NCBI GenBank assembly: GCA_003963305.1
Contig: RXJR01000022.1
Location: 124,001-188,000, forward strand
Length of the DNA stretch: 64,000 nt
From: Candidatus Melainabacteria bacterium
GTDB lineage: Bacteria > Cyanobacteriota > Vampirovibrionia > Obscuribacterales > Obscuribacteraceae
Reading direction: 5' to 3'
Part shown: piece by piece, positions 48,982 through 64,000 of the stretch
How positions within the stretch are numbered: the first letter of the stretch is position 1
How the letters are laid out: each line of letters starts with the position of its first letter
The notes under the pieces: model-generated
Seen by the model: the letters and a program-made list of their open reading frames with translations, nothing else
What the model was told of the DNA's origin: nothing
Database searches by the model: none
Position numbers and translations under genes: made by a program

Positions 48982-51900
48982 CTATTGAGCAGCAAATTTG
49001 ATTAGTAAAGCTTTCACACGGTCATCCTTTACTGCGTTGATCAAAGCAGTATACGACTTTGCAGTATCAGCGACGAAATTGTGCTGAACCTTCAAACTGC
49101 TCATGCTGGGATTGTTTGGATTCAGTGCGTAGACTTGTTGGATGGCTTTAGTAAGGGCTCGAACTTCTTCCAGACTGTGCTGTTTACCATCGGCTTTCAA
49201 AATCCTCTCAGCCGATTGCCAGGGTCCTTCGCCTCGTCTGACTGTTGCGGCTTTGATCATTGCTTCACTCGGCTTATATTCTTTAACCGCAGGTGGCACG
49301 ACTGGTTCAACTACTGGTGCATCGGCAGGCTTTCGAGCGGCCAGTGCTGCATCAGTATGTTGGGCGGCGGCAGCGATCCTGACTGCAGTTTCCGGTGCCA
49401 GACCAAGATCGCCAAGCGCTGGGCGCAGTCTACTTGCGCGAGCGGCTGTTGTCTCAGATATGACTGTGTACTCACCATCGATGATTGTTGGTCCACGTCT
49501 GGCTTCGGCACGACCCAACGCGGCGCCGACTTCGCGTCCAGCACCTTCTGCAGCTGGAACGACTTCACGTGTTCCGGCGGCGACCAACTCTCTACCGGTA
49601 GTCGAGGTACCTGCTACCACCAGCTCTCTACCGGCGGTAGCGGTGGCGGCTGGAACCAACTCTCTAGCAGCGGTAGCTGTGGCGGCAGGAATCAACTCTC
49701 TGCCGGTAGTGGCAGCAGCAGCGGGAACTATTTCTCTACCTGTGGTGGCGGCAGGAAGTAACTCGCGGCTGCCTCCGGTCAGTGCAGGTTGGACTTCGCG
49801 CAGTACTCCCCCGTATACAGCCTCTCTGCCGGTTCCAGCGACAACAACTTCTCTTCCAGTTGTACCAGTGGCTCGCAGTTGCGTGACAAATACCTCAATT
49901 TCTGTTCTTGTCGAAGGAGCCAATTCGGCCGCGCCTTTAACGCCTTTGCCGAAAAGCGCTGCAGGAGCTGCAATGAGAAGTCCATCTGCAGCGCCGAGCA
50001 GCGACTGCCTGACCATGTTGCGAGTGGAATCGTCAAAATTTCCACCTTCGACAGCCTTCATCAACTCCACTCTGTAAGCAGCACCGGCAGCAGTGGCGGC
50101 AGGCACCAGTGCAGCCAGAGCGGCAGTGCTCAAGCCAGCCGTCGCCGGAATGGAAGCCAGCATGGCAGCGGCCATAGTGGCATTGTAAATCAGCTCGGCC
50201 TTGGCATGCTCTGACTGGACCTGCTGAAATTTAGCTTCGCTGAAAAGCTGATCGAGAACTCTCTGCCTGTCTTCAGGTAGATTTTGTCTCATTCTGGAAT
50301 ATTCAGTCAAAAGAGACTGATTGGACTGAACGGTGCGATCGAGGGTGAGTGCAGAAGCATCAGCAGCGGTGCCTGACTTATCGGCTGACAGGCGTCTGTC
50401 GACAAAATCCTGAACACCGTCACCTGAAGTCGTAGAAAGCAACTTACCATATTCGATCGAGTGGGCTTTATCAACTTTGCCCAGGAAGTCATTATCGAGA
50501 CTGCTGTTATACTTCGCGCTGTACTCATTTTTGAGGCTCTCTCTCTGAGCTGGCGTGAGAGCCGCGAGTCTGTCGCGAAAATCTCTGAAATCGCCACCGT
50601 CACCAATGGCGAATGAACGCAGTTGATCTGCCAGAGTTGCCTTTCCATCCTGTTTAATGACACTGTCGAGAATTTGACGCTGATCGCCGCTAAGACTAAC
50701 GCGATCGCGCACCTGTTGTGGAGCTCTTGCAAAGTCTTCGTATAGTGAACTCATTGGCACGCCGAGGCTGTACTTTACACCAGCACCAATCTGTCCATCT
50801 TGCAGTGCCTGATTCCACGAATTCTGGTTGGCGAGATAAGGAGCAGACTCGCGCAGAGCATTGCTGACGCGAAATGCTGCAGCGAACGCGGGATCTTCCA
50901 TGCGCTTCGACATCTCCGCTGCACCGAGAGCACGTGCTGCTTCAACTTGCTTCAGCTGTTCTACGAGGTTTTTGTCTTGCAGGACGCGCTCCATATCGCG
51001 AACCCTGGTGGCAGGATCAGCGCCATCAAGATTGTCCTTAATAACCTGTTGTACTGGACTGAGTTGAGGAGGCTTTCCGGTTTCGGCAACCTGTTTCAAC
51101 GTAGTTTCTGCAAGATATCTTTGAGCAGACGACTCCGGCAGTTGCTCCGAAACGAATTTATCAACCTTTGCACGAAATCCATCGGTGTTGTTTCTGTATT
51201 TCTGTGCGTCTTCTGCCGACATGGTGGCGATGCGAGCGGTAACAGCGGTGTTATCGAAGGTGTCGCTGCGACCGAACCAGTGAGTAGCTCTTGTATCATT
51301 CATCACATCAGTAACTGATCTCTTGATACCGTTAGCAGCATCGTAAGATGGTGCATTGGCTTTGTCGGTCACCATGGCGAGTATGCGAGCCTTCTCTTCC
51401 GGAGTGGCGTATGCATCGAGCGAGCGAGCCAGGTCGGCTTGATATTTAGCCAGTTCTTGCGGATTTCCATGCAATCGATCGTAGTCTGCTTTGCTCATTC
51501 GCTCAGCTGCAGACATGATTGCATCCGTTGTATGACTACCCGAAGAATGTGTGGCAGCCAGTTCGGAAATCAGTGTTTTGCCGCCATGCAAGAGTTGATC
51601 CTCGAGAACGCTCTTCCTGAGTTGATCGACTGTGCCGTCGAACATCGTCAGCGTCTTATCCATTGCCGCTTCGACTTTTTGATGATAATCGACTGCAGCC
51701 TTAAGCTCGGGAGTGGTAGCCAATTTATCGGCAGTTGTACCTTCTCGTGCCGCGCGCTCGGCTAATTCCTTTCCGATTCTGTAATCGTTGCGCTCGCGCG
51801 TGGTGGCATTAGACAAAGCGAAGTCCGTATTGCCGGGGTTATCCAGAAGACCGAGCCAGACGTTGCTGTTGCCCTGGATAATGGTAGCCAGTGAAACTCG

Positions 51901-52878
51901 TCCTTCCGTGCGGATGTCTTCAGCTACTTGACGCTCTGCCGCACTCTTTCCTTTCTCGAAAGTATCCTGATATGCAGCAGTGAATTTAGGATCTGCTTGA
52001 AGCTGCTTGAGAGCGGCTCTAGCAGAAGGTGATTCGTCACCGACCGCCTCGGTAAACATGCGCAAGTCACCGGCTTTCAGGGCAATGTTTGCCATGGCAA
52101 CGACATCTGCCGGCTTGCGAGCGTCAGCGCCGACAACCGCAAATCGTTTGCCATCCAACTCCACTGCCGCTTCGCCAGGTCCTGCTTCTCTTGGTTGCGC
52201 ACCTAAAACCATGGCTCGCACCATGTCTTTGTTCGCCTGCGACACGTCAGGATTGTCCAGGATTGTCTGGACGAAACCTTTGCCGTTGCCGTCCGGACCC
52301 TTGAACTGCTTGTCGAGCTGAGCCAGGCTGGGTCCATTTAAAGTTTCGAGGGTGCTTCTCAGCAGTCTCTGTCCTGCTTCGGGATCAGTCTTAGTCATTT
52401 CGAGAGAAAGGTTGACCATGCCTTTGATATTGCTGCGACCATCCACACGATCAAGAGTTGCAACCTGAGCAAGGTAATCAGTGGGGCTGAGCTTCTCTTT
52501 CATGTCAGCTCGCAATTCGCGGCCGAAATGTTGGCGATAATCGCTTTCTAGATTCTTACGATCAGCCGAAGACATAGGTCCGAGAATGCGCGAGAGTGCA
52601 GCGACGTCAGGACTGTTGCCGAAGATTCCGGCATTGAGGGCTTTGTGCACGGCGTTCGACTCAACACCGATAGCCTCTGCGCTCAGTGTCAGCTTAGGCA
52701 ATGTGCCGTCGTTGACCATGCGGTCTGTGGCTGCATTACGTGCTGTGATCGAAGAGGATACGTGCTCCTGGCTATCAGCCGGAGTCAACGGAGCTGTAAT
52801 GCGCTCAGGTGCGGAGACACGTTCCGGTGCAGCTCTTCTTGGTTCTACTGCGGCTTCGCCATTGTCATTTCTTGCCAT
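48982..52878 (-). CDS. 1298-residue protein with annexin-like repeats and LysM-like C-terminus
   Basis: No signal peptide. By eye, two segments (about 70-140 and 765-815) share the pattern M/L-S/T-x-A-x-R-x-x-L-x-x-x-Y-x-x-x-F/Y-x-x-x-L-x-x-D, as in SSADRKNLESDYRQHFGREL and LTPAQRESLKNEYSAKYNSS, which resembles annexin-type repeats. Long Ala/Glu-rich helical stretches lie between them. An Ala-rich hydrophobic block (about 893-980: TMAAAMLASIPATAGL, DGLLIAAPAAL) precedes tandem 12-residue TGREL(V/I)PA repeats (about 1020-1120). The last 90 residues carry a LysM-like module (GEGPWQSAERIL) shared with the protein at 63302. ATG 52878 has AGGA seven bases upstream; a longer reading to 52977 is less likely. 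Function unknown; effector-like or scaffold roles are inference. Confidence 0.75.
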   Translation of the reverse strand: MARNDNGEAAVEPRRAAPERVSAPERITAPLTPADSQEHVSSSITARNAATDRMVNDGTLPKLTLSAEAIGVESNAVHKALNAGIFGNSPDVAALSRILGPMSSADRKNLESDYRQHFGRELRADMKEKLSPTDYLAQVATLDRVDGRSNIKGMVNLSLEMTKTDPEAGQRLLRSTLETLNGPSLAQLDKQFKGPDGNGKGFVQTILDNPDVSQANKDMVRAMVLGAQPREAGPGEAAVELDGKRFAVVGADARKPADVVAMANIALKAGDLRMFTEAVGDESPSARAALKQLQADPKFTAAYQDTFEKGKSAAERQVAEDIRTEGRVSLATIIQGNSNVWLGLLDNPGNTDFALSNATTRERNDYRIGKELAERAAREGTTADKLATTPELKAAVDYHQKVEAAMDKTLTMFDGTVDQLRKSVLEDQLLHGGKTLISELAATHSSGSHTTDAIMSAAERMSKADYDRLHGNPQELAKYQADLARSLDAYATPEEKARILAMVTDKANAPSYDAANGIKRSVTDVMNDTRATHWFGRSDTFDNTAVTARIATMSAEDAQKYRNNTDGFRAKVDKFVSEQLPESSAQRYLAETTLKQVAETGKPPQLSPVQQVIKDNLDGADPATRVRDMERVLQDKNLVEQLKQVEAARALGAAEMSKRMEDPAFAAAFRVSNALRESAPYLANQNSWNQALQDGQIGAGVKYSLGVPMSSLYEDFARAPQQVRDRVSLSGDQRQILDSVIKQDGKATLADQLRSFAIGDGGDFRDFRDRLAALTPAQRESLKNEYSAKYNSSLDNDFLGKVDKAHSIEYGKLLSTTSGDGVQDFVDRRLSADKSGTAADASALTLDRTVQSNQSLLTEYSRMRQNLPEDRQRVLDQLFSEAKFQQVQSEHAKAELIYNATMAAAMLASIPATAGLSTAALAALVPAATAAGAAYRVELMKAVEGGNFDDSTRNMVRQSLLGAADGLLIAAPAALFGKGVKGAAELAPSTRTEIEVFVTQLRATGTTGREVVVAGTGREAVYGGVLREVQPALTGGSRELLPAATTGREIVPAAAATTGRELIPAATATAARELVPAATATAGRELVVAGTSTTGRELVAAGTREVVPAAEGAGREVGAALGRAEARRGPTIIDGEYTVISETTAARASRLRPALGDLGLAPETAVRIAAAAQHTDAALAARKPADAPVVEPVVPPAVKEYKPSEAMIKAATVRRGEGPWQSAERILKADGKQHSLEEVRALTKAIQQVYALNPNNPSMSSLKVQHNFVADTAKSYTALINAVKDDRVKALLIKFAAQ
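49585..49758. repeat. 36-bp tandem repeat inside the giant gene
   Basis: At least four in-phase 36-bp units (starting at 49585, 49621, 49657 and 49693, plus a degenerate fifth from 49729), each opening with CAACTCTCTA or a close variant. They encode 12-residue units ending in a GREL/GREV core with PAA or VAG spacers. More diverged copies extend on both sides. Confidence 0.85.
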
Positions 52879-53000
52879 ATAGAATCCTGAAGGAGATTGC
52901 TTACAATCTCCAATCAGCCTTTGGTTAAAAGTACTAGTAATGAGTGGGGCTCGATACGTTATTTGTACCGGCCCCAAGTTACATCTACGTTACGTGTTTA

Positions 53001-56000
53001 CTAGCTGCCCCAAACATTGCGGGCAAAGTCCGAACCAACCGTAGCCAGCTGATTTGAAACCGACTGCTCTCTGGCTCGGAAAGCTGCAGCGTGCGCAGGC
53101 ATATTCTTCTGTTCGAAGAGCTGAACAAAAGCCTGAATCAGTGGCACCACTTGCGGATCGGCTCCGTTGCACTGCGACAGACTATTCAGTGCGCAGTTTG
53201 CCACATTCTGAGCCTCCTGAACCTTTCCAGCCTGAATGAGCGAGTTGATCGTGTGGTAGCCAACCAGAGCGTTGTTGAGGTGCTCAGAGGAAGAGGAGCC
53301 GGAAGAAATTCTTGCGGCGTTGGCACGACCAAGAGCCGAACTGAAAGCGCTTCCACCCAGATTGCGGTTGCTGGAATTGATCACCTGTTGTTCAAGTGAC
53401 TGATTAGTCGAATGCACAGATTCAGGCTCAACCGCGTCTCGCAAACGACCCAGGAACGAAGGGACCTCGGCAGCGTGCGTGCTTTGCATAGGAGGAACAA
53501 GCTCTGCCTGGTCTGATACCGACTCCGTGCTTGCTTCCATTGGAGGCAACTGACGCTTACTGTTTTTCGAGTCCAACAAAGAATTGAGCGAACGATTTTC
53601 TACTTTTCTAGCTGGCGGTTGTGCTGGTTGAGAGGTCTGACGGGTTCTCGCTGCAGCCCAAATTTGCACCGGCGCTTCCTTAGCTGTGGAGCCAGGAATG
53701 AGCTCTTTGCGCAATTCGCTCTTGTAGGCGTCATTTGTTTGAACAGCAGATTCTTTGCGAGCTGCTACTACCTGGTCCATCAAACTTGCTGATTCATGCT
53801 GATGGGTAACGGCTGAAGAATTGTACTCGACTGACTGATCGACTGGATGGTAGCTGTTCGGAGCGGCGTCGAAAGCAATGCGTTCGGCGACGCTGGAGGT
53901 GTTGACGACAGGAATAGAACGGCTTGGCTCAGCAAAGCTAGAAGCGGCGGGTGCTGAATAATATTCGGATTGATTCTGCGCTTGAGCCGACTGTACATGC
54001 TGAGCGAGCCCGGCATTTGAGATTACCGATTGCTGCGAATCAGGAACAATCTGAGAACGAACTTCAGAAGCCATGTTGTGTGCTTCTACTGCGCGGAATG
54101 CGTTTTCCGATCTCGCTTGAGAAACCTGGTCCATCAACGAACTCGATGATTGAGCGCAATAGACCTGCTGCGTGTGCAGTGGTTGGGTCGTTTCAAACGA
54201 AGCGGCGGCGTTTGAATTGTAGGAAACGGAATGGTCTACCGACTGGTCAACTGCCTGATACGATGTTGGTGAGGCATCGAAAGCAATGCGGTGAGCAGCA
54301 TCCGAAGCTTTGACATTGTTGACGTCTTGATCTACCTGCACCGTCGAGTAGGAAGGTCCTCCGGCTGCATATGATGCATCAACTATGCTTGAAGAACCGC
54401 CTGCACTGTAGGTAGACGCACTAAGATTAGAGGCGCTGGACGAATAAGAGTTGGCATCGACCTGATCGCGACTGTAGTTTGAAACACTGGTGTTATCAGC
54501 AGAACCAAATGAAATTGGTGGCACAACTTCCACTGAGCTTGTAGTTACAGGTGTCGCATAGGAATTGCCAACTTCGTTGTTTTGCGAGTAAGCAACTGAC
54601 GACGTCGATGCCCATGAATTAGATGATTCGCTTGAGACTTCATATCTGGTACCAGCAGGAGGGACTGAAACTTCCTGTCCACCAGAAGCAGCGGAGTGAC
54701 CGAAAACGTTGCCGTCAGGTACAACTGCTCCGTTGTTTGTCCAGACAGTGCTCGACGATTCCAGAGCCGAGCGTCTGAAGTCATCTGAACGTGCGGCGGC
54801 AGCAGCCATTTCAGCACGCCTGCTGGACTCGTCCGCGGCGAGGTCGGCTGCCCTGGCAGCACCAAGCGTGATCACTTCCGCCCCAGGCTGTGCTGCATAG
54901 GTACTGCCGGCAGGGCAAGCCATATTGCTTGTCACCTCATTGAACTGCGGCATAGAACTGATTTGACCAATGTTGGTGATGTCTCCGTCGAATGCTGCTG
55001 CGTATCGAGCATCTAATGGAGTTGTCGACAGAAGCGATCCGGAGCTGTCGAAGTTATTAGTCTGAGCGTTATAAACGGAACCATCGTCATTGAAATTGAT
55101 ACTTGTCGCAGAGTAAGTTCCGTCCGCATTAAATGCATCGCGCTCGTAGCTTACGGCCTGCCCGTCTGCGTTATAAACAGCAGAAACGAAGCCGTTGTCG
55201 GTGAACTGCGAGTACGTTGCACCAAGAGCATTGCTGTCGCGATCGTAATAGTTCGTCAGGCTGCCGTTATTGGCAGTAGGTTGAACAACACTGAATCCGG
55301 AAACATCTTGAGTGTGCGCATCGTAGTTTGTCGTCTTGAGAAGATTTCCGTTCCAGTCCTCTCCGTATGTCTTACGGCCTGCAGCATCGTATGCTTGAGC
55401 ATGAATGTCGCCGGCTGCGTTTGCGCTCATCGTAATACTGTCGAGCGCAGTGTGTGAACTATCAGAATGGCTGACGTTGAGTTCGCCTTCACAAAGTGAC
55501 TGAACCAGGAAGTTGTCGGTGGCAGGGTTATCGGTGCCGTTGTTGAAGACGCTCAATTCGGTGCCGGCATCGGTCTGGGAAGCTTGTACGACTGTACCGT
55601 CAGGCAACGTCGCTCTTCCGTTAGAGTCGAACTGAAGTTGTACGTTTTCCCCGGCTGCGTTCTGAGCATAGAATCGGGATCCATCGCCAGAGACAGACAA
55701 ACCATGCTGCGCCATGAGTGCGACAGCAGCCTGCCCATCGATGTGGGTGCTGTGCATTCCGGCTGCATTTGCAGTCGTGAAGCCGGCAAGCGCTGTCAGA
55801 GAATTTTCGGTCAGTCGACCAGAACTTTCTAGTGGATTGAAGTTGATTGTATCGGCCGGCGGAATCACATCAACGCCATCTTCGGTAGGGGGAGGCGTGT
55901 GCTCGGCTACAACACGGCCGGGCGCATCAGGATCAGCTTTTCCGGTTGACGGACCAGCGTCTCTCAAGACCGAGGGGGGAAGCGTAGACAGAGTGTTCAC

Positions 56001-57797
56001 ACCATCATTGAAGGACCTCAGGCTCGATCCTGTGAAAGATGCACTGTGCAGCAGGCTGTTGCCCACTGCAAACTCAGATGGGCTAAACGAGGCGGGCTGA
56101 ACTCCTTCGAATGCAGCCGGGCTATCAGCGGCAGACCCATGATAAGAGGCGAGTTGAATGTGGCTTCCCGGAGCACTACCTTCGTGATCGGCATGCTCAA
56201 CACCATGTGCACCAGCGTTACGGCTGCGATGCCCGGCGGCCGAATGACCGTGCCCCTTGCTTCCGCCACCGCCCTTGCCACCACCGCCGCCGCCTTTCTG
56301 GGCAGCCTGCATTGCCTTTTCAGCCATGTTAGCAGCTTCCTGACCGGCAGCCTTAGCCAGTCCGGCAAAATCAAAGGCGTATTTAACAGATGAAGTAGCC
56401 AGAAAATTCAGCGCAGTGATAACAAGAGTGCCGGTTTCGTCTACACCTCTGAAGCAAGCCATGAGCAAGATCGAGGTATTCCAGAACAACGACCAGAATC
56501 CGAGTGTAATCACACCTTCGCACCAGCTTGGAAATGCGCCGCGCAGACTCTTCATAGGCCATGCCCAGAGCGCTGCTGTAATTGGTCCAACAAACCAGAG
56601 GTAGTAAAAATAGATCATCTGGAAGGCGCAAAGGATGTTCCAGGCAATCATAAAAGTAGCATTGGTGCTGTTGAACATCTCCTTAGCAGCGATGACAGCA
56701 GCAGGCAGCGCCTCGTCTGCACGATCTGGAGGAGCAAGATAGATACCTGCAACTGGATCTTCGATTTTGTTTTCAATCATCATGCCTTCGAAACGCGCAA
56801 ATGCAGTGGTGCCGTTCAAGAGAGGTCCCATTTTTGCAGTCTGCTGATCGAGTGCATTGCGATTCTCGCCTGGTTGTCTGGCTGGGAAGGCGCGAATGTG
56901 GAAAGATATGGCGTCACGATACATGTCGGTGCCGAAGATCTGGGTGTACTCATCTGCAATTGAGAGGGTAACCGAATTGTTGAGATCGATGCTGTAGTTG
57001 ATGACGAGGTATGTGCCTGGTATGAGAAAAATTGCGATGATGGCGCGCTGAATTCCTTCAAATGGATTGGCTTCTCCCAGCACAGGATTACCAGCAGCCA
57101 TTATCGATTTGACCTGCGTCAACATTGCCCCGGGCAGCAAGAGGAGAACAGCCATCGGAACGAAAATTCCGTCACGCAATTTGTTCCACTTGTTTGCACC
57201 GTCTGTAGTGAAGTTGATCAGAAAGCTGGAGCAAAAATCGATTGCTGATGCAGCTTGTTGCTTCTCAAGATCGGCGAGAGCATTTGCCATTTCCATTGCT
57301 TGCGAATCAAGATTCGACTTGGCGGCATGCATTTGCTTATCAGGGGCATTGACACCGGCAGCCAGCGTGGCTACGAAGTTAGCCAGATAGAGCTGTGTCT
57401 CGCTATTTGTAGGAAGCATACCGTCGCTGTTGGCGGCGTTACGTCTATAGGCTTCACGCAAACCTGCCGGCCAGTTGACCCGAATCGCGCTGGCGGGCAC
57501 ATTGCACTGTTTGTCGCCAATTGTCGTCTTGCCACCGCTGACCTCATCGAGACCTTTGTCTTCGCACTTCTGGCGTTGATTTTCAGTCTTCTGACGTCCG
57601 CCTTGATCTTCCGGAGCATCGCCACCATTAACGATACCAGCTCCGTTGTGATACTGATTGTTCCAGATGGTCGGTCCGCCACCTGTCTGACCCTTCTGGG
57701 TTCCGGCAAGACCACCGGGAAACGCCAGAGCCTGGATATTTACAGAAGCGACGGTAAGTAAGGACAAGAGTAGAAACAAGAATCTAGAATTCTTCAT
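53001..57797 (-). CDS. TrbL/VirB6-like polytopic protein with YD-like repeats and long tail (B)
   Basis: 1598 residues. Signal peptide (RFLFLLLSLLTVASVNIQALA). A soluble part to about 210 precedes several membrane helices (about 212-480). Segments VPMAVLLLLPGAMLT, NPFEGIQRAIIAIFLIPGT and FVGPITAALWAWP match the paralogue at 57946. A Gly/His-rich linker (about 497-530) is followed by YD-like strands (about 700-920: YDAAGRKTYGEDWNGNL, YNADGQAVSYERD) and a Ser/Gln/Tyr-rich tail with an internal duplication (about 1166-1255 and 1303-1369). A helical end domain (about 1500-1590) closes it. ATG 57797. The core recalls TrbL/VirB6 inner-membrane secretion components; the extension is not known to me. 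Confidence 0.75.
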   Translation of the reverse strand: MKNSRFLFLLLSLLTVASVNIQALAFPGGLAGTQKGQTGGGPTIWNNQYHNGAGIVNGGDAPEDQGGRQKTENQRQKCEDKGLDEVSGGKTTIGDKQCNVPASAIRVNWPAGLREAYRRNAANSDGMLPTNSETQLYLANFVATLAAGVNAPDKQMHAAKSNLDSQAMEMANALADLEKQQAASAIDFCSSFLINFTTDGANKWNKLRDGIFVPMAVLLLLPGAMLTQVKSIMAAGNPVLGEANPFEGIQRAIIAIFLIPGTYLVINYSIDLNNSVTLSIADEYTQIFGTDMYRDAISFHIRAFPARQPGENRNALDQQTAKMGPLLNGTTAFARFEGMMIENKIEDPVAGIYLAPPDRADEALPAAVIAAKEMFNSTNATFMIAWNILCAFQMIYFYYLWFVGPITAALWAWPMKSLRGAFPSWCEGVITLGFWSLFWNTSILLMACFRGVDETGTLVITALNFLATSSVKYAFDFAGLAKAAGQEAANMAEKAMQAAQKGGGGGGKGGGGSKGHGHSAAGHRSRNAGAHGVEHADHEGSAPGSHIQLASYHGSAADSPAAFEGVQPASFSPSEFAVGNSLLHSASFTGSSLRSFNDGVNTLSTLPPSVLRDAGPSTGKADPDAPGRVVAEHTPPPTEDGVDVIPPADTINFNPLESSGRLTENSLTALAGFTTANAAGMHSTHIDGQAAVALMAQHGLSVSGDGSRFYAQNAAGENVQLQFDSNGRATLPDGTVVQASQTDAGTELSVFNNGTDNPATDNFLVQSLCEGELNVSHSDSSHTALDSITMSANAAGDIHAQAYDAAGRKTYGEDWNGNLLKTTNYDAHTQDVSGFSVVQPTANNGSLTNYYDRDSNALGATYSQFTDNGFVSAVYNADGQAVSYERDAFNADGTYSATSINFNDDGSVYNAQTNNFDSSGSLLSTTPLDARYAAAFDGDITNIGQISSMPQFNEVTSNMACPAGSTYAAQPGAEVITLGAARAADLAADESSRRAEMAAAAARSDDFRRSALESSSTVWTNNGAVVPDGNVFGHSAASGGQEVSVPPAGTRYEVSSESSNSWASTSSVAYSQNNEVGNSYATPVTTSSVEVVPPISFGSADNTSVSNYSRDQVDANSYSSSASNLSASTYSAGGSSSIVDASYAAGGPSYSTVQVDQDVNNVKASDAAHRIAFDASPTSYQAVDQSVDHSVSYNSNAAASFETTQPLHTQQVYCAQSSSSLMDQVSQARSENAFRAVEAHNMASEVRSQIVPDSQQSVISNAGLAQHVQSAQAQNQSEYYSAPAASSFAEPSRSIPVVNTSSVAERIAFDAAPNSYHPVDQSVEYNSSAVTHQHESASLMDQVVAARKESAVQTNDAYKSELRKELIPGSTAKEAPVQIWAAARTRQTSQPAQPPARKVENRSLNSLLDSKNSKRQLPPMEASTESVSDQAELVPPMQSTHAAEVPSFLGRLRDAVEPESVHSTNQSLEQQVINSSNRNLGGSAFSSALGRANAARISSGSSSSEHLNNALVGYHTINSLIQAGKVQEAQNVANCALNSLSQCNGADPQVVPLIQAFVQLFEQKNMPAHAAAFRAREQSVSNQLATVGSDFARNVWGS
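53690..54300 (-). repeat. internal duplication in protein B
   Basis: Two related segments of about 65-90 codons: one at about 54040-54300 and one at about 53690-53888. Both run RIAFDA-PxSYxxVDQSV, YNS, SLMDQV-x-ARxE and end with IVPDS/LIPGS. The copies differ by a short insertion in the first. Confidence 0.7.
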
Positions 57798-57945
57798 GCT
57801 AATCCTTCACGGCCTGCAGCGGCGAGCCATCGCTCAGTCTCTGCTGCCGATTCATCTAGTAAGGGGGCTGCTGGAGGGGTAATGCCTACCCAACGAACCT
57901 ATCTTGCCAAGATAACGTTACGCTAATGTGACGGGTTCGCCGAGG

Positions 57946-59889
57946 TCAACATTCAAGTTCGCCGGCTGTAGATAATGGCGGGGGACCATGGTAAACAGCG
58001 TTCTCAGCCCGTGGAGTGCCGTTAGACGATGGGGTGCCTCGTTCAGATCCGGGATTGCCTCCTGGAGAGCTGCCTGGATGTGTGCCACGGCTTCCACTGC
58101 CCTGATCGGAATGGCTGGCGCCCTTCTTACCACTGCCGCCGCCGCCACCACCGCCGCCTCCTCCTCCGCCGCCCTTAACGGCTTCAGACTTGAGCTGTTC
58201 GGCTTTCTGCAAAATCTTACTGACCATCTCACCTGGTTTGTATTCGAATGGAACGAACGGAACGTAGAGCAAGATAACCATGAATGCAGTGTAGACAGCC
58301 ATCTCCCACTGACTATTGGGAATATAGATACCCTGCTCCATTAACCATTCGATGCGTGTTTGCATGATCAAGATCACCACGCACCACCAGAACTTCCACA
58401 AAGACACATTGATCAGCGCATCGATCCAATTAGTAAAACAAGTTTTGAATAGCGAGCCACATCCCGACGGCCAGGCGAAGAATGCTGCGGCAATCGGTGC
58501 CATTAAGAAGAGATAGCAAATCATCACCATCTGAAAAGCCGAAAGCATAAGCATTCCAAAATTCATAGCGACGTTGAGCATGTTGAACGCCATTTGCATC
58601 ATGCGGGTGGCTGCGCCCTGGTTCTCAACTTGAGACGATTTCTCGCTGCCGCCATCTATTTTGCCGGCGATTGCCTCACTGATACCACCACCGAGGGCAG
58701 CCTCGATACTTGGTGGCACAACGTTAGCGTAATCCTTCGGCATGCTGAATGCGTTCTTTGCATTCTGCACGGGTGCATTGAACGTCTGCTCCTTCATCCA
58801 CTCGATCAGCACGGTAGGTTCAATGAGATTCTGCACTTCAAAAGTCATTGAATTACCGACGTCTATTGCCCAACTGGCAAAAAGTTGGGTGCCTGGAATG
58901 AGGAATATGGCAATAATGCTGCGCAGAATTCCAGTAAAGGGATTGACTGCATCCTCGTCTTTTGCACCAAGGATGCCGTAGGCAAGATAACCTTTCAAAT
59001 TCGTCAAAATGGCGCCTGGAAGCAGAAGCAGAAGGGCCATGGGTACGTAGATAACTTTGTAGACTTGCTGCACCATCCAGATCGCCTGACTGTGTGTCTT
59101 AACTGGAGCTTCAGAAGCCGTGGGCGTGCCCGAACCCTCATTGGCAACGTTGATCAGTGGGGTACGACACTCTTCTACTCCTGTCTGGAACCCGTTTTCG
59201 GCTGCTCCGGCAGCAGCATCGGAAATCTCCTGCTGCTGCGCTCCCATGTTTGCCTTAGCAGTTTCAGCGGAACGTTTTGGTGCATTAATTAACTGGGTGG
59301 CGGCATAGGCAGCAGCGATATAGTTAATCTGCATGATCGAATTGGAGGGCATAGCGCTCTCTAGCGCCTTCGGCATCTTTGGAAACCACTTGTCCAAAAC
59401 TGCTTTAGCCGCGGCAGATGGAGGCGTGGCGGACACTTTTCTCATCGGCGGAAACGAATACCAGTTCTGACCAGCCGGAGGTGCCTGGTAGGCAACGTTG
59501 ACACCATTGCCGATGTTTTTGTAGGACCACTGCGTCAGAGTTTTGTCAATCTGCTGCGGTTTAGGCTTTTGCGCCTGGGGATCGGGCTTCTTCGTTTGAA
59601 CTGTATGATCGCCTGCGCCTGTACCAACGCCAGCCTGATCGTTATTTCCGTACGAAACGTCCTTGGTCGGAGCACCCGGCTGAGGCTCGAGTTGCTCCAT
59701 TTTGTCGTCTTCTTCAGCGGCAGGATTTTGCATGTTGTACATGCGGCTATGCTCGGTCTGTGAATAAGCGCGACCCTGCGGACCAAGCGACGAGAATCCT
59801 CCACTCGGCAGTGCATAAGCGGAATCCAGACAGATTGACGCAATGCAGAAGTACAGAAACAAAAACCGACAGATTTTCAGTCTTTCCAT
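57946..59889 (-). CDS. TrbL/VirB6-like polytopic membrane protein (A)
   Basis: 647 residues. Signal peptide (FLFLYFCIASICLDSAYA), soluble region to about 285, then helices at about 287-312, 322-345, 430-475, 488-515 and 528-548. Hallmarks shared with protein B: VPMALLLLLPGAILT, NPFTGILRSIIAIFLIPGT, and a Pro/Trp-containing loop (MAPIAAAFFAWP ... FTNWIDAL) that resembles the conserved loop of TrbL/VirB6 channel components of type IV secretion. A run of 13 glycines (about 570-583) and a Ser/Gly/Pro tail end the protein. ATG 59889. It reads in the same direction as B, 148 bases upstream of it. Identification as TrbL-like is by eye only. Confidence 0.75.
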   Translation of the reverse strand: MERLKICRFLFLYFCIASICLDSAYALPSGGFSSLGPQGRAYSQTEHSRMYNMQNPAAEEDDKMEQLEPQPGAPTKDVSYGNNDQAGVGTGAGDHTVQTKKPDPQAQKPKPQQIDKTLTQWSYKNIGNGVNVAYQAPPAGQNWYSFPPMRKVSATPPSAAAKAVLDKWFPKMPKALESAMPSNSIMQINYIAAAYAATQLINAPKRSAETAKANMGAQQQEISDAAAGAAENGFQTGVEECRTPLINVANEGSGTPTASEAPVKTHSQAIWMVQQVYKVIYVPMALLLLLPGAILTNLKGYLAYGILGAKDEDAVNPFTGILRSIIAIFLIPGTQLFASWAIDVGNSMTFEVQNLIEPTVLIEWMKEQTFNAPVQNAKNAFSMPKDYANVVPPSIEAALGGGISEAIAGKIDGGSEKSSQVENQGAATRMMQMAFNMLNVAMNFGMLMLSAFQMVMICYLFLMAPIAAAFFAWPSGCGSLFKTCFTNWIDALINVSLWKFWWCVVILIMQTRIEWLMEQGIYIPNSQWEMAVYTAFMVILLYVPFVPFEYKPGEMVSKILQKAEQLKSEAVKGGGGGGGGGGGGGSGKKGASHSDQGSGSRGTHPGSSPGGNPGSERGTPSSNGTPRAENAVYHGPPPLSTAGELEC

Positions 59890-60133: not shown

Positions 60134-61723
60134 GTGGAATTAACAGAAGAAAATGCACAGTCAGTAAATCTTGTCCCCGAGTCGGATGAGAATAATTTGG
60201 ATTGCAGTGAAACTGATCCACCTCAAAGTCCTGAAGTTGCGCAGGCTAAAAATGGTTTGCAAAAATTTCCAGACATAAAAATTCCAGGAATGACGCTGCC
60301 AGAACCTGCATTCGGAATGAATTCGCTCAGAAAGCGGTGTTCGCTAATGAGACTAGCTCCGTTTGGACCGAATTCACTTTTCATGATATCTGTATTGGCT
60401 CTGGCAGTGGCGCTCATTGTCTATCAATGGCTCCATAACCGTTCCGAGACAGAAAAGTTATTTCGCTACTATGTCGACCAGGCGCAGCTTTCCGCGCTCA
60501 ATGGCCACGACAACAAGGCAGTCAGTGCATGGAGAGATGCCATTGAAAACGCCATCGCCCTCGGTGACAACCCGAAACTAATCGGTAATTTGTATCTGGA
60601 AAAAGCGAAATCAGAAATAGCTGCATCGAAAGCTCTAACAAAGCCAACTGAAGTTGAAACTAGCAGGCAGCAGATCATAGGCGACATACAAAGAGCTCTG
60701 ACCCATTACCAAAAGGATTCATTTACTACACTGGCACAGATTCAAGCACAGGAGCTGCTTTTGTCAATCCTGCCGGTGTACACGGAACGATTTGTCAGTG
60801 ATGAAGAACAAGTGCGCATAGACGAAAGACGGGCTACAGCAGAAAAACTTCTCAAAGAAGGTAAGCAAAGTGAGGCGCTGAAGGTCTTTACAGAAGTTGT
60901 AATCGCGTCGAAAGGGCTCACACGGGCAGCCTTAGAAGACGACATTAAACAGCTAATGACGAGACGGTCCAACCCTCGTACAAATGCGGAAGAGCTTTTC
61001 CCAATCACATCGGCCTTGTTTACCTATCAAATATGTGCGTCAGCACAAACGACAGTTGAAGAGGGTCAAAGTCTAAACTTACTGCTTGATCAGGCTTTGA
61101 AGGCAAGTGGACATGCAAAAGATGACTACCAATACCTGAAGAAGCTTGGCGATCGCATGTTCGTAAAGGCGAACTATCATGGGGCTAACCTTGCATATTG
61201 GCGCTGCCAGGCGCTCAAAGATTCAGCCGAGGTGAGAGAGCATCTAAAATTCTGCTATTTAAAGTTGCATCCTACTAAAACAGAAGACAGCCAAGCCGCT
61301 ATCAGTGCCGTTGTGGAACTGATAAGACTTAACGTCAAAGCATTCGGGCAAGACAGTAAGCAAGTGACTGGCGCCGTGGAGAGGCATGCGGAGCTGCTCG
61401 AGTCAACAGGCAATTTTGAAGAGGCCGAGACGCGACGCCGAACAGTTTTTGACCGAATTGTCGCAGACAAGTCGGGACAACCGTTCTATGACAGATACGG
61501 ACAAATTATTAGCGATCCTGCCAGACAAGCAGAAGATGCAATCATGAAACTATACGTCACTGAAGGGAAGTTCAAAGAGGCTCTAGCGTGGTACCGAGAG
61601 AGACAACCACAATCTGACCAGATGACAGAAATGGATTTTACGTTTGTGGATCTGTGCACAAAGGCAAACTGGCTGTCTGACCCAATGCTAGAAGAAGTGA
61701 TCGAGCGAGAAAGGCATGATTGA
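60134..61723 (+). CDS. single-TM TPR-like protein (first of a pair)
   Basis: 529 residues. A hydrophilic, acidic N-terminus of about 75 residues leads to one TM helix (about 88-107: NSLFMISVLALAVALIVY). A large helical region follows with TPR-like units (QAQLSALNGHDNKAVSAWRDA, AEKLLKEGKQSEALKVFTE, ETRRRTVFD). N-in, C-out topology is likely. Start is GTG at 60134 in a 244-base divergent spacer with protein A; the promoter is not evident. Its end overlaps the next gene by eight bases, and the products look like distant paralogues. Confidence 0.75.
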   Translation: MELTEENAQSVNLVPESDENNLDCSETDPPQSPEVAQAKNGLQKFPDIKIPGMTLPEPAFGMNSLRKRCSLMRLAPFGPNSLFMISVLALAVALIVYQWLHNRSETEKLFRYYVDQAQLSALNGHDNKAVSAWRDAIENAIALGDNPKLIGNLYLEKAKSEIAASKALTKPTEVETSRQQIIGDIQRALTHYQKDSFTTLAQIQAQELLLSILPVYTERFVSDEEQVRIDERRATAEKLLKEGKQSEALKVFTEVVIASKGLTRAALEDDIKQLMTRRSNPRTNAEELFPITSALFTYQICASAQTTVEEGQSLNLLLDQALKASGHAKDDYQYLKKLGDRMFVKANYHGANLAYWRCQALKDSAEVREHLKFCYLKLHPTKTEDSQAAISAVVELIRLNVKAFGQDSKQVTGAVERHAELLESTGNFEEAETRRRTVFDRIVADKSGQPFYDRYGQIISDPARQAEDAIMKLYVTEGKFKEALAWYRERQPQSDQMTEMDFTFVDLCTKANWLSDPMLEEVIERERHD

Positions 61724-63281
61724 AAAACTTGAAACTCCTGCTGCCGAAACGAATTCGCAAAATGCTGGCGAGCTAGAAGCGAATCCTATAAATTCAACTA
61801 TTAAATCCAGGTTCGTCTGTTTGGCATCAGACATCGTCCGTGTCAGATCCATTCCGGTTGCGCTGGGGTTACTCACCGCTATGTCTATTGGAGCCAATTC
61901 GTATTCACAACTCAAAAGTACGGAAGATGCACTGCAAATTCACAGAGACAGTGCTGAACTCTTCGATTATTCACATCAGGATGCGGAGGCCAGCAAGATG
62001 TGGCATCGAGCTATCACTGATTCTATGAAATTGAATTACCGAGAAAAATTGACTGGCGATATGTATGTAAGAGCGGCTAAATCCGAGCGTCATGCCGCTG
62101 TTGCAGTTTCTTATGGACAGACCATGTGGAAAATTCCCCCGGGCGCGGAAGCAAAATCAAAGACTGAGGAACAGTTCTACAAATCACAGCAAGAAGCAGA
62201 TCTCAAATCCGCGTTGAAAATATACAGCAGGATACCAGACACCAGAGCTGAGCAGCTTGTTGTCTTGAACGATTTGCATATAATTCTTGGACAGAAAGTA
62301 GCTCAAGCAAACTGTTACTTGAGCGACGGCTCGGCGTACGCAGGCGAAAACAAAGACCCTCAGGAGCGGCAACCAGACCGCGACTTGCAGGAGGGGTTGG
62401 CTAAATTAGAATCAGGAAAAGAGGACCTCGGTCTCGCGTGCTTTCAACGGTATTTAAGCCGAACGCATGATTCGATCAAATTGGCGAATCCTGTCATCAA
62501 ACAAATTCAAGCGACAAGCAAACATGACTATAGAAGAGTGCAACTGTTGATTCCTCTCATACACGAAGTTATCTACTACTGTCAGAACATTCAAGACCTC
62601 CGGTGGGAGTTCGAATGGCTAAACTTCTTGCTCGCTTCGCTGATGGACCCTGACGACTATCATGACCGACTAAACCTCGCTGATTCGACAAATACCGTGC
62701 ATGGCGCGATTATTGAGTATTCGAGATGTCTCGGACTGAAAGAGGATAAGGTCGTTAGTGCCAAGCTTCTAGGCAAGTTACAAGAAGCAAGAAATACCGA
62801 TTTAAGTCCGCAACAGCAGTCAGACATCACTAACTATATCGACTGCCTGACGCGTTTACAAAAGCTCAGAATTGACGCATTCGGCGCCAATGACCATGGC
62901 ACCCAAGATACTACAAAGGAACTCGGTATTGCTTCAGGTCTAAGTGGTGATTTCGAAAACGCCGAGCACTTCCTGAGTTCACTGACAACAGGCGCTGCAA
63001 TCGAAGGACCTTCTGACGCTCGCCTGAGCCTGGCAGACCTGTACACAAATGAAGGCAAATTCAACCTGGCGCTCTCGCTGTACGATCAAGTCTTCCAAGA
63101 GTTGAAGAAGGAGCAGCACGCAAGCGTTCGGTTTCTCCGGTGGCGGATAGCCCGAGCAAATCTTCTTGCAGGGCGAATGAAACCGGCAATCCAAGCAATC
63201 AACGACGCCAACAACGAGTCAACACCTGATCTGTTCGGTTCCAGCCGAAGCAATGTTGACCCGTCGTTATTGATGGAGTAA
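61716..63281 (+). CDS. single-TM TPR-like protein (second of a pair)
   Basis: 521 residues. N-terminal about 45 hydrophilic residues, one TM helix (about 46-64: SIPVALGLLTAMSIGAN), then helical repeats with the same register as the upstream protein (TEDALQIHRDSAELFDYSHQ / SKMWHRAITDSMKLNY; LADLYTNEGKFNLALSLYDQ). ATG at 61716 lies inside the end of the preceding gene, with AAGG just upstream, so translation is coupled. No catalytic motif. Convergent with the LysM-like-module protein gene that ends at 63302. Likely an envelope scaffold; partner unknown. Confidence 0.75.
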   Translation: MIEKLETPAAETNSQNAGELEANPINSTIKSRFVCLASDIVRVRSIPVALGLLTAMSIGANSYSQLKSTEDALQIHRDSAELFDYSHQDAEASKMWHRAITDSMKLNYREKLTGDMYVRAAKSERHAAVAVSYGQTMWKIPPGAEAKSKTEEQFYKSQQEADLKSALKIYSRIPDTRAEQLVVLNDLHIILGQKVAQANCYLSDGSAYAGENKDPQERQPDRDLQEGLAKLESGKEDLGLACFQRYLSRTHDSIKLANPVIKQIQATSKHDYRRVQLLIPLIHEVIYYCQNIQDLRWEFEWLNFLLASLMDPDDYHDRLNLADSTNTVHGAIIEYSRCLGLKEDKVVSAKLLGKLQEARNTDLSPQQQSDITNYIDCLTRLQKLRIDAFGANDHGTQDTTKELGIASGLSGDFENAEHFLSSLTTGAAIEGPSDARLSLADLYTNEGKFNLALSLYDQVFQELKKEQHASVRFLRWRIARANLLAGRMKPAIQAINDANNESTPDLFGSSRSNVDPSLLME

Positions 63282-63301: not shown

Positions 63302-64000
63302 CTATCGGAACAGACCGGCAAGAGCGGGATTGCTACGAAGGTTGTTGTCGATGACCAGTTCTTCATTGCGACGCAGTTCATTGCGATTTCCGTTTGCAGC
63401 TCGCAATTGCTTGGCGACGCTGCTCAATTCTGCCTGACTTGCATCGTATCGCTGTCCCTTGTGCGCTTCAGCGATGAGGCGCTCGGCAGCATGCCAGTAG
63501 CCTTCGCCAGACCTTACTTTCAATGCATCATGGACATTTGGGGGCAAATCACCGCCTGCTGGTCCGCGCTGTGGACCGACAACCTCAGGACGAGCCTGTG
63601 GCTGAGCGACTGGACGAGTTGGTTCGATACCGCCGCGACGAAGTGCATTGTCGCTCAGATTGTGCTGATGTGCCTGATCGATCAATTCGGCTGCAGTAAG
63701 ATCCTTCTTGGAGAACCAACCATCTCGAGACAGCCCCTTGATGTAATCCAATGTGTGGCGATCCTTCGGACTGAGAGCAGGATCCTTCAGCTCCTGGTCG
63801 ATACGTGCACTGGATATGCCACCATCTGGACTGGCAAGACGTTGATAGAGGCTCTGTCTGCCCATCGGCTTTTCAAACAGGTGAGCAAAATCTTCCTGCC
63901 TTCCACGGCTTACATCGTCAAGTCTTGTACGTTCAGGTCTGCTGGACAATCTATCCCAATTGGTACCAGAATCGGCCGCTAGTTTCTGCAGATCGGCTTT
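63302..64000 (-). CDS. C-terminal part of a protein with LysM-like end module
   Basis: The frame has no stop up to the window edge at 64000, so the N-terminus is missing. A TTG at 63949 looks internal, because the upstream codons continue (KLAADSGTNWDRL). Visible parts: a hydrophilic region with two EF-hand-like but degenerate segments (LASPDGGISSARIDQEL, LSRDGWFSKKDLTAAEL), a Pro/Gln-rich linker and a C-terminal module (VRSGEGYWHAAERLIAEA ... NEELVIDNN). That module parallels the end of the protein at 48982 and resembles a LysM fold pattern. Function unknown. Confidence 0.7.
   Translation of the reverse strand, partial: KADLQKLAADSGTNWDRLSSRPERTRLDDVSRGRQEDFAHLFEKPMGRQSLYQRLASPDGGISSARIDQELKDPALSPKDRHTLDYIKGLSRDGWFSKKDLTAAELIDQAHQHNLSDNALRRGGIEPTRPVAQPQARPEVVGPQRGPAGGDLPPNVHDALKVRSGEGYWHAAERLIAEAHKGQRYDASQAELSSVAKQLRAANGNRNELRRNEELVIDNNLRSNPALAGLFR

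Follow-up and report, generated by a model that had tools for sequence, protein, structure and literature searches.

A SHORT-LONG Gene Pair in the Window

The window is a stretch of 64,000 nucleotides from the genome of a Candidatus Melainabacteria bacterium (7.48 Mb, 44 contigs). On its reverse strand it contains a large open reading frame (ORF), here called LONG, and a shorter homologue, SHORT, which lies upstream in the same direction. The LONG ORF was confirmed as real. The features of the pair are as follows.

53001..57797 (-): LONG, a VirB6-like protein with an extended tail; ATG ORF of 1,598 aa
57717..57797 (-): predicted signal peptide, residues ~1-27, inferred from the hydrophobic residues 5-28 and the small residues after them
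56358..57272 (-): VirB6-like membrane core, residues 176-480, from identity, model helices and VIA-align
56523..56588 (-): GP...W.P...W signature, residues 404-425, between predicted transmembrane helices 3 and 4
55794..56357 (-): Gly/His-rich linker, residues 481-668, from composition
54843..55793 (-): YD-like beta segment, residues 669-985, from strands, fold matches and marginal profile matches
53460..54842 (-): Ser/Ala/Gln-rich tail, residues 986-1446, from composition and identity
54036..54443 (-): tail duplication, copy 1, residues 1119-1254, from self-alignment
53688..53990 (-): tail duplication, copy 2, residues 1270-1370, from self-alignment
53001..53459 (-): TPR-like helical end domain, residues 1447-1598, a conserved domain shared by 12 of 69 tails, two of which match TPR models
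57946..59889 (-): SHORT, the VirB6-like partner, 647 aa

The first-pass annotation of this DNA described a polytopic secretion-like core, followed by a Gly/His linker and about 1100 further residues. This layout was supported. Both hydropathy and the structure model indicated that LONG is polytopic up to around residue 480. The composition of the ~1,100 residues behind the core is Gly/His-rich at first, and then Ser/Ala/Gln/Asn-rich. Scans of the whole LONG and SHORT proteins against Pfam, NCBIfam and PHROGs gave no match over the cut-off.

The orthologue of LONG is found at locus L029 of the metagenome-assembled genome (MAG) SZAS-4. Identity between the two proteins is 95% for the core, 46-49% for the Gly/His linker, 63% for the YD-like segment, 67% for the tail and 74% for the helical end. 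The core is also 88% identical to that of the paralogue on contig C9, and the Ser/Ala/Gln tail shows 26-28% identity to related copies. The dN/dS ratio against the SZAS-4 orthologue was 0.01 for the core and 0.11 for both the Ser/Gln tail and the helical end. These ratios (0.01-0.17 over the regions of LONG where they were computable, with two regions incomputable) are rough, as dS is near saturation.

Copies and Distribution of the Pair

Seven LONG paralogues, including that of the window, are present in this genome, each beside a SHORT. Six pairs are codirectional and one is divergent (C24, L014). SHORT and LONG are homologous to each other (hhalign E 6.7e-82 over 299 columns), both are polytopic, and they are nearly always adjacent. 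Among 70 loci, SHORT adjoins LONG wherever the contig permits, except in an array (L038) and at one or two loci that lack a recognized SHORT. At the ancestral-type locus, VirB4 and a PrgI/VirB3-like gene belong to the same operon as the pair. One of the seven modules of this genome is in such an operon; the other six, including that of the window, are orphans.

The core was detected in 51 of the 53 Obscuribacterales genomes, with 1 to 22 matches per matching genome, and in none of 291 other sampled genomes of the phylum. A single scan of bacterial and archaeal genomes found 63 loci, mostly in records that carry the name Melainabacteria, Obscuribacterales or Cyanobacteria. There was no match in the plasmid and phage collections searched. 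Several VirB6-like cores stand in a row at G042:C94 and G044:C7, which are apparently tandem arrays.

Similarity of the Core to VirB6

The core model of LONG shows long membrane helices (pLDDT 82). Hydropathy and the model fit a periplasmic N-terminus and about five transmembrane helices, with weak loop charges. In the comparison by VIA-align, the best three rows were all TrwI/VirB6 of plasmid R388 (Z 6.9, 6.8 and 6.6), and the best of them spans residues 3-267 of the 272-residue chain; Z below 8 may reflect a common arrangement, and the core-VirB6 values below 7 are within the chance range for such models. Foldseek alone gave E 0.57 for the core model against VirB6. The structure comparison is suggestive of a resemblance to VirB6.

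The signature residues G404, P405, P414 and W425 are invariant in all seven paralogues of this genome. When aligned by hhalign with plasmid VirB6 (eight proteins, with the Shinella hit H24 left out), both LONG (P 0.012) and SHORT (P 0.0057) picked the GP...W segment, over just 35-36 columns and with a probability of 4-6%. Comparisons by hhalign with TraG of the F plasmid and with the single sequence of TrwI were not significant. The TrbL/VirB6 profile PF04610 had no match over the cut-off in this genome, the single match being on C28 (E 0.139). Profiles of VirB6/TrbL relatives gave one weak TrbL_5 match (E 0.0037) among 76 core members, and a sequence search of PDB with the core profile returned chance matches only.

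Taken together, the fold match to R388, the GP...W motif and the operon context described below indicate that the core is best read as VirB6-like, outside the membership of the TrbL/VirB6 profile. The secretion-type core suggested from the first reading of the sequence is specified in this way. The two-gene organization, with its seven copies, and the type IV setting of core and tail were not part of that reading.

Type IV Secretion Genes Associated with the Pair

The operon on contig C1 has the gene order c6-c3-c1-SHORT-LONG-c8-c2-c0-c4-c5, which recurs in ~30 loci. It contains three secreted/lipoprotein genes, SHORT, LONG, a DUF2225 gene, a PrgI-like gene, VirB4 and two genes for small membrane proteins. 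The gene c0 corresponds to VirB4: the Pfam models TraG P-loop and TraC_F_IV matched over the cut-off, and the VirB4 structure 4ag5 was matched in PDB with E 5.8e-15. The gene c2 resembles PrgI (10 of 28 members match; best E 0.0012). The linkage with VirB3/VirB4 was therefore found for the C1-type operon in its ~30 loci, and not for the orphan pair of the window. VirB9 and VirB11 were not recognized among the genes of C1-type operons. The assignment of c5 to VirB8/TraE was considered and rejected, as it had no profile or PDB support.

A second type IV cluster is located on contig C15 (G000:C15:208000-227900, L092). It encodes VirD4 (PF02534, E 2.2e-16), a second VirB4 (VirB4-2, E 8.7e-18), a VirB3-like protein of 112 residues, which was assigned by position and size and has no profile match, and a 224-residue protein. 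VirD4 of the C15 type is present in 49 of the 53 genomes of the order. Most genomes have one copy of the close VirB4 orthologue (>1,700 bits). A second, distant VirB4 occurs widely, and an intermediate copy is also seen in a few genomes, including G017, G018 and G031. VirB10-like (TrbI) matches elsewhere in this genome are weak, with one just over the cut-off.

Three other loci were noted. At L073, a SHORT-LONG pair lies beside an apparent C15-type cluster. A TrbI/VirB10-like match of 24.6 bits, below the cut-off, is found at G000:C1:314543-315124 (L018), separated by ~5 kb from the upstream boundary of the type IV secretion system (T4SS) operon. The 131-kb contig C26 (G000:C26) shows several coupling-protein-like matches and is possibly a conjugative element separate from the VirB6-like system.

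Because VirB4, VirD4 and VirB6-like proteins are conjugation genes, and other coupling-protein-like genes are present on C26, the pair could belong to the conjugation machinery of an integrated plasmid or an integrative and conjugative element (ICE). This origin is highly improbable. The system is near-universal in the order, mostly with one close VirB4 orthologue per genome, and the pairs are inherited together with their neighbors, while plasmid and phage matches are zero. Nor was a relaxase identified in the gene listings around the C1 and C15 clusters. A chromosomal T4SS, which probably exports protein, is the preferred reading.

YD-Like Segment, Tail Duplication and Helical End

In the AlphaFold2 model of residues 655-1000, there are ~20 regular beta strands (pLDDT 75, pTM 0.68). 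The profiles for YD repeats gave marginal results. Against the whole LONG protein, both Pfam RHS_repeat (E 0.083) and NCBIfam YD_repeat_2x (E 0.42) were under the cut-off. Against the segment 655-1000 alone, RHS_repeat remained under its cut-off of 22 with 18.3 bits (E 0.0032), and YD_repeat_2x reached 18.8 bits (E 0.0016), over its cut-off of 15.8. Rather than many tandem YD repeats, one segment-level NCBIfam match was thus obtained, and none over the Pfam cut-off. The segment is common to 11 of the 69 homologous tails; two of these 11 match RHS_repeat and one matches YD_repeat_2x. The two halves of the region show no significant internal repeat (z 2.0).

The top ranks of Foldseek for this model were Rhs effectors, single-layer sheets of OspA and teneurins, with E from 1.5e-6 and low TM-scores of 0.1-0.3. 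In VIA-align, Z reached 8.1 for teneurin-2, and unrelated beta proteins, VDAC among them, scored similarly. Designed Cake propellers, which appeared in a PDB search with the YD profile with E to 1.8e-13, were rejected, as these scores are sums over short repeats and not homology. Since the fold matches have low TM-scores, RHS_repeat is under the cut-off and few homologues match, the segment is considered to be a YD-like beta sheet of regular build rather than an Rhs shell; its length is insufficient for the Rhs cocoon.

The Ser/Ala/Gln-rich tail contains a duplication. Residues 1119-1254 and 1270-1370 align with a Smith-Waterman score of 148 (z 14.2), compared with 45 +/- 7 and a maximum of 71 in 300 shuffles. 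Self-comparison of LONG by BLAST showed no off-diagonal match, probably because BLAST drops contained matches. The helical end is a conserved domain of ~150 residues in 12 of the 69 homologous tails, and TPR models match 2 of the 12 members (best E 1.9e-6). All carriers of the YD-like segment and the helical end that were placed on the tree are orphan pairs.

The first-pass annotation had proposed YD/RHS-like strands, a duplicated tail and a helical end domain. The latter two agree with the results above. For the first, the strands, the Rhs/OspA fold matches and one marginal profile match were found, so that the segment is neither disordered throughout nor devoid of a YD profile match, but a recognizable Rhs shell was not. 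The annotation also linked YD repeats to large exported toxins or adhesins, and here the YD-like sheet stands without a recognized toxin domain: no toxin family was detected in the 48 tails scanned.

These results bear on the idea that the pair encodes an Rhs/YD polymorphic toxin, in which the core would be an anchor or exporter for a toxin behind YD repeats and the adjoining genes would be immunity or partner genes. The YD-like profile and fold matches fit this idea, as does the strong difference of the tails among paralogues. It is nevertheless very unlikely, considering that ~20 strands are far below an Rhs shell, that the 48 tails include no recognized toxin domain and that no obvious small immunity gene is seen beside LONG. 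The C-terminal domain, instead of a variable toxin, is a TPR-like end kept between paralogues.

Origin of the Orphan Pairs and Neighboring Regulators

In the core tree of 67 rows, three changes account for the operon and orphan labels, versus 22 in shuffles, and most orphans cluster in a single region; the reading of their origin is limited by a number of open forks and by long branches. Four of the six orphans of this genome pair directly with a copy from SZAS-4 (C22 with L029, C3 with L034, C24 with L048, and C11 with L056). The orphan on C9 groups with copies from SZAS-4 and palsa_1080 (L029-L031), and the one on C20 is paired with L042 from palsa_1080. Taken as a whole, this points to an origin of the orphans by duplication, followed by vertical keeping.

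Response-regulator or sensor-kinase genes are found near 15 of 35 orphan loci and none of 35 operon loci (Fisher p 9e-6), an association that is indicative, because relatedness makes the loci non-independent and the examined stretches vary in length.

The orphans could also be relic or decoupled paralogues, which are independent of the T4SS and form a separate membrane channel or adhesin platform. VirB4 is absent from their vicinity, several of them lie close to regulators, and extended paralogues of Anaplasma are spread over the cell surface (PMC7648143). The strong conservation of the core (95% identity, dN/dS 0.01) and the retention of SHORT with LONG argue against such decoupling, which appears rather unlikely.

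Proposed Function and Location of the Tail

Our preferred reading is that the genes at 53001-59889 are an orphan duplicate of the VirB6 module of a T4SS that is chromosomal, inherited vertically and present across Obscuribacterales, and that the orphan modules serve as alternative VirB6 subunits whose tails specify contact or cargo. We assign it a rough probability of 0.62. Points against it are the lack of a TrbL/VirB6 profile match over the cut-off in this genome, the chance-range scores of the fold match, the short hhalign alignments to plasmid VirB6 and the operons in which VirB9 and VirB11 were not recognized. In the export channel, SHORT and LONG would form the VirB6-type portion within the inner membrane. 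The orphan pairs would replace the operon pair on the same motors, and several of them may be expressed under the control of two-component systems. With its linker, YD-like sheet, Ser/Gln stalk and TPR-like end, the LONG tail would give each variant its contact or cargo specificity.

The hints about the side of the membrane on which the tail lies are in conflict. A signal peptide and about five helices would put the tail of LONG in the cytoplasm, and the loop charges around the core helices are too weak to decide its side. The C-terminus of VirB6 is cytosolic in A. tumefaciens and Brucella (PMC6536674), while the C-termini of VirB6-3 and VirB6-4 of Anaplasma are surface-exposed (PMC7648143). 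The content of Lys plus Arg averages 4.5% in the tails, compared with 11.6% in soluble proteins of the same loci, and that of Cys 0.13% compared with 1.06%; these low values may merely reflect low complexity. Because of the low Lys plus Arg and Cys contents and the exposed C-termini in Anaplasma, a tail at the surface, in the periplasm or otherwise outside the cytoplasm is slightly ahead of the cytoplasmic reading.

If the tail is cytoplasmic, it would dock cargo or chaperones to VirB4/VirD4, and the orphan modules would differ in the substrate fed and not in the outside contact. The predicted topology and the cytosolic ends in A. tumefaciens and Brucella speak for this arrangement, and folds like that of the TPR-like end commonly dock proteins. 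The tail composition, the acidic composition of the YD-like sheet and the exposure in Anaplasma speak against it. It is a serious contender that falls somewhat short of even odds.

An extension of the preferred reading, with alternative VirB6 subunits on common motors, is a modular T4SS with one or two conserved motors and interchangeable VirB6 pairs, whose long exported tails, some of them with a YD-like sheet, would serve as sensors of contact or as adhesins, with two-component signalling selecting among them. Such a combinatorial machine is undescribed in the literature found. This extension is speculative and has a low probability.

Comparison with Known Systems

Multiplied and extended VirB6 proteins are already known in Rickettsiales, such as VirB6-3 and VirB6-4 of Anaplasma phagocytophilum (PMC7648143). 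Shared characteristics are the several VirB6 copies, the large repeat-bearing C-terminal extensions, the scattered T4SS clusters and more than one VirB4 (PMC7648143); the genome analyzed here has seven pairs with VirB6-like paralogues bearing long C-terminal extensions. Obscuribacterales differ from Rickettsiales in the phylum, the paired SHORT-LONG organization, the YD-like sheet with a TPR-like end, the orphan copies away from the operon, and the PrgI-like protein instead of a typical VirB3.

VirB6/TrwI of R388 and other plasmid T4SS share with LONG the predicted core fold (Z 6.9, within the chance range noted above), the GP...W signature and a Gly-rich C-terminus. Unlike LONG, they are ~340 aa in length, single-copy and without a long tail, and there is no profile similarity over the cut-off. 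TraG of the F plasmid combines a VirB6-like N-terminus and a long extension at the C-terminus; its hhalign comparison gave no significant match. Rhs/YD proteins (Tse15, TccC and teneurins) have repeated beta strands as LONG does, and are among the best Foldseek matches of its middle segment. LONG differs from them in its short open sheet and marginal profile matches, and it has neither a shell nor a recognized C-terminal toxin. It is an unexpected setting for such a sheet.

In Vampirovibrio chlorellavorus, a non-photosynthetic relative of cyanobacteria, a T4SS was proposed to function in predation (PMC4451040). It was described as T-type conjugation genes located on plasmids and on a single contig, with no mention of extended paired VirB6 (PMC4451040). 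Among open-licence papers, none on T4SS in Obscuribacterales was found. The present analysis points to a chromosomal, order-wide T4SS in non-photosynthetic relatives of cyanobacteria. They are a second lineage, besides Rickettsiales, with multiplied long-tailed VirB6-like proteins, which opens the role of the tails to comparison.

Genes Beside the Pair

The gene next downstream of LONG (48982-52977, (-)) encodes a protein of 1,331 aa with an annexin-repeat match over the Pfam cut-off (E 9.1e-6). Its homologue in SZAS-4 is 62% identical, has an annexin match with E 7.7e-8, and also lies downstream of the pair, from which an inserted stretch separates it. Distant homologues are found near the pairs in L056 and L054. 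It is possible that this annexin-repeat protein is a substrate of the T4SS, or a neighbor only.

On the other side, two divergent genes beside SHORT (60134-61723 and 61716-63281, both (+)) encode proteins with weak TPR matches, and their homologues are in the same place in SZAS-4 (L029). The proteins encoded at 48982-52977 and 63302-64000, both (-), have a similar ending of the GEG.W..AER(I/L) type, which looks LysM-like by eye only.
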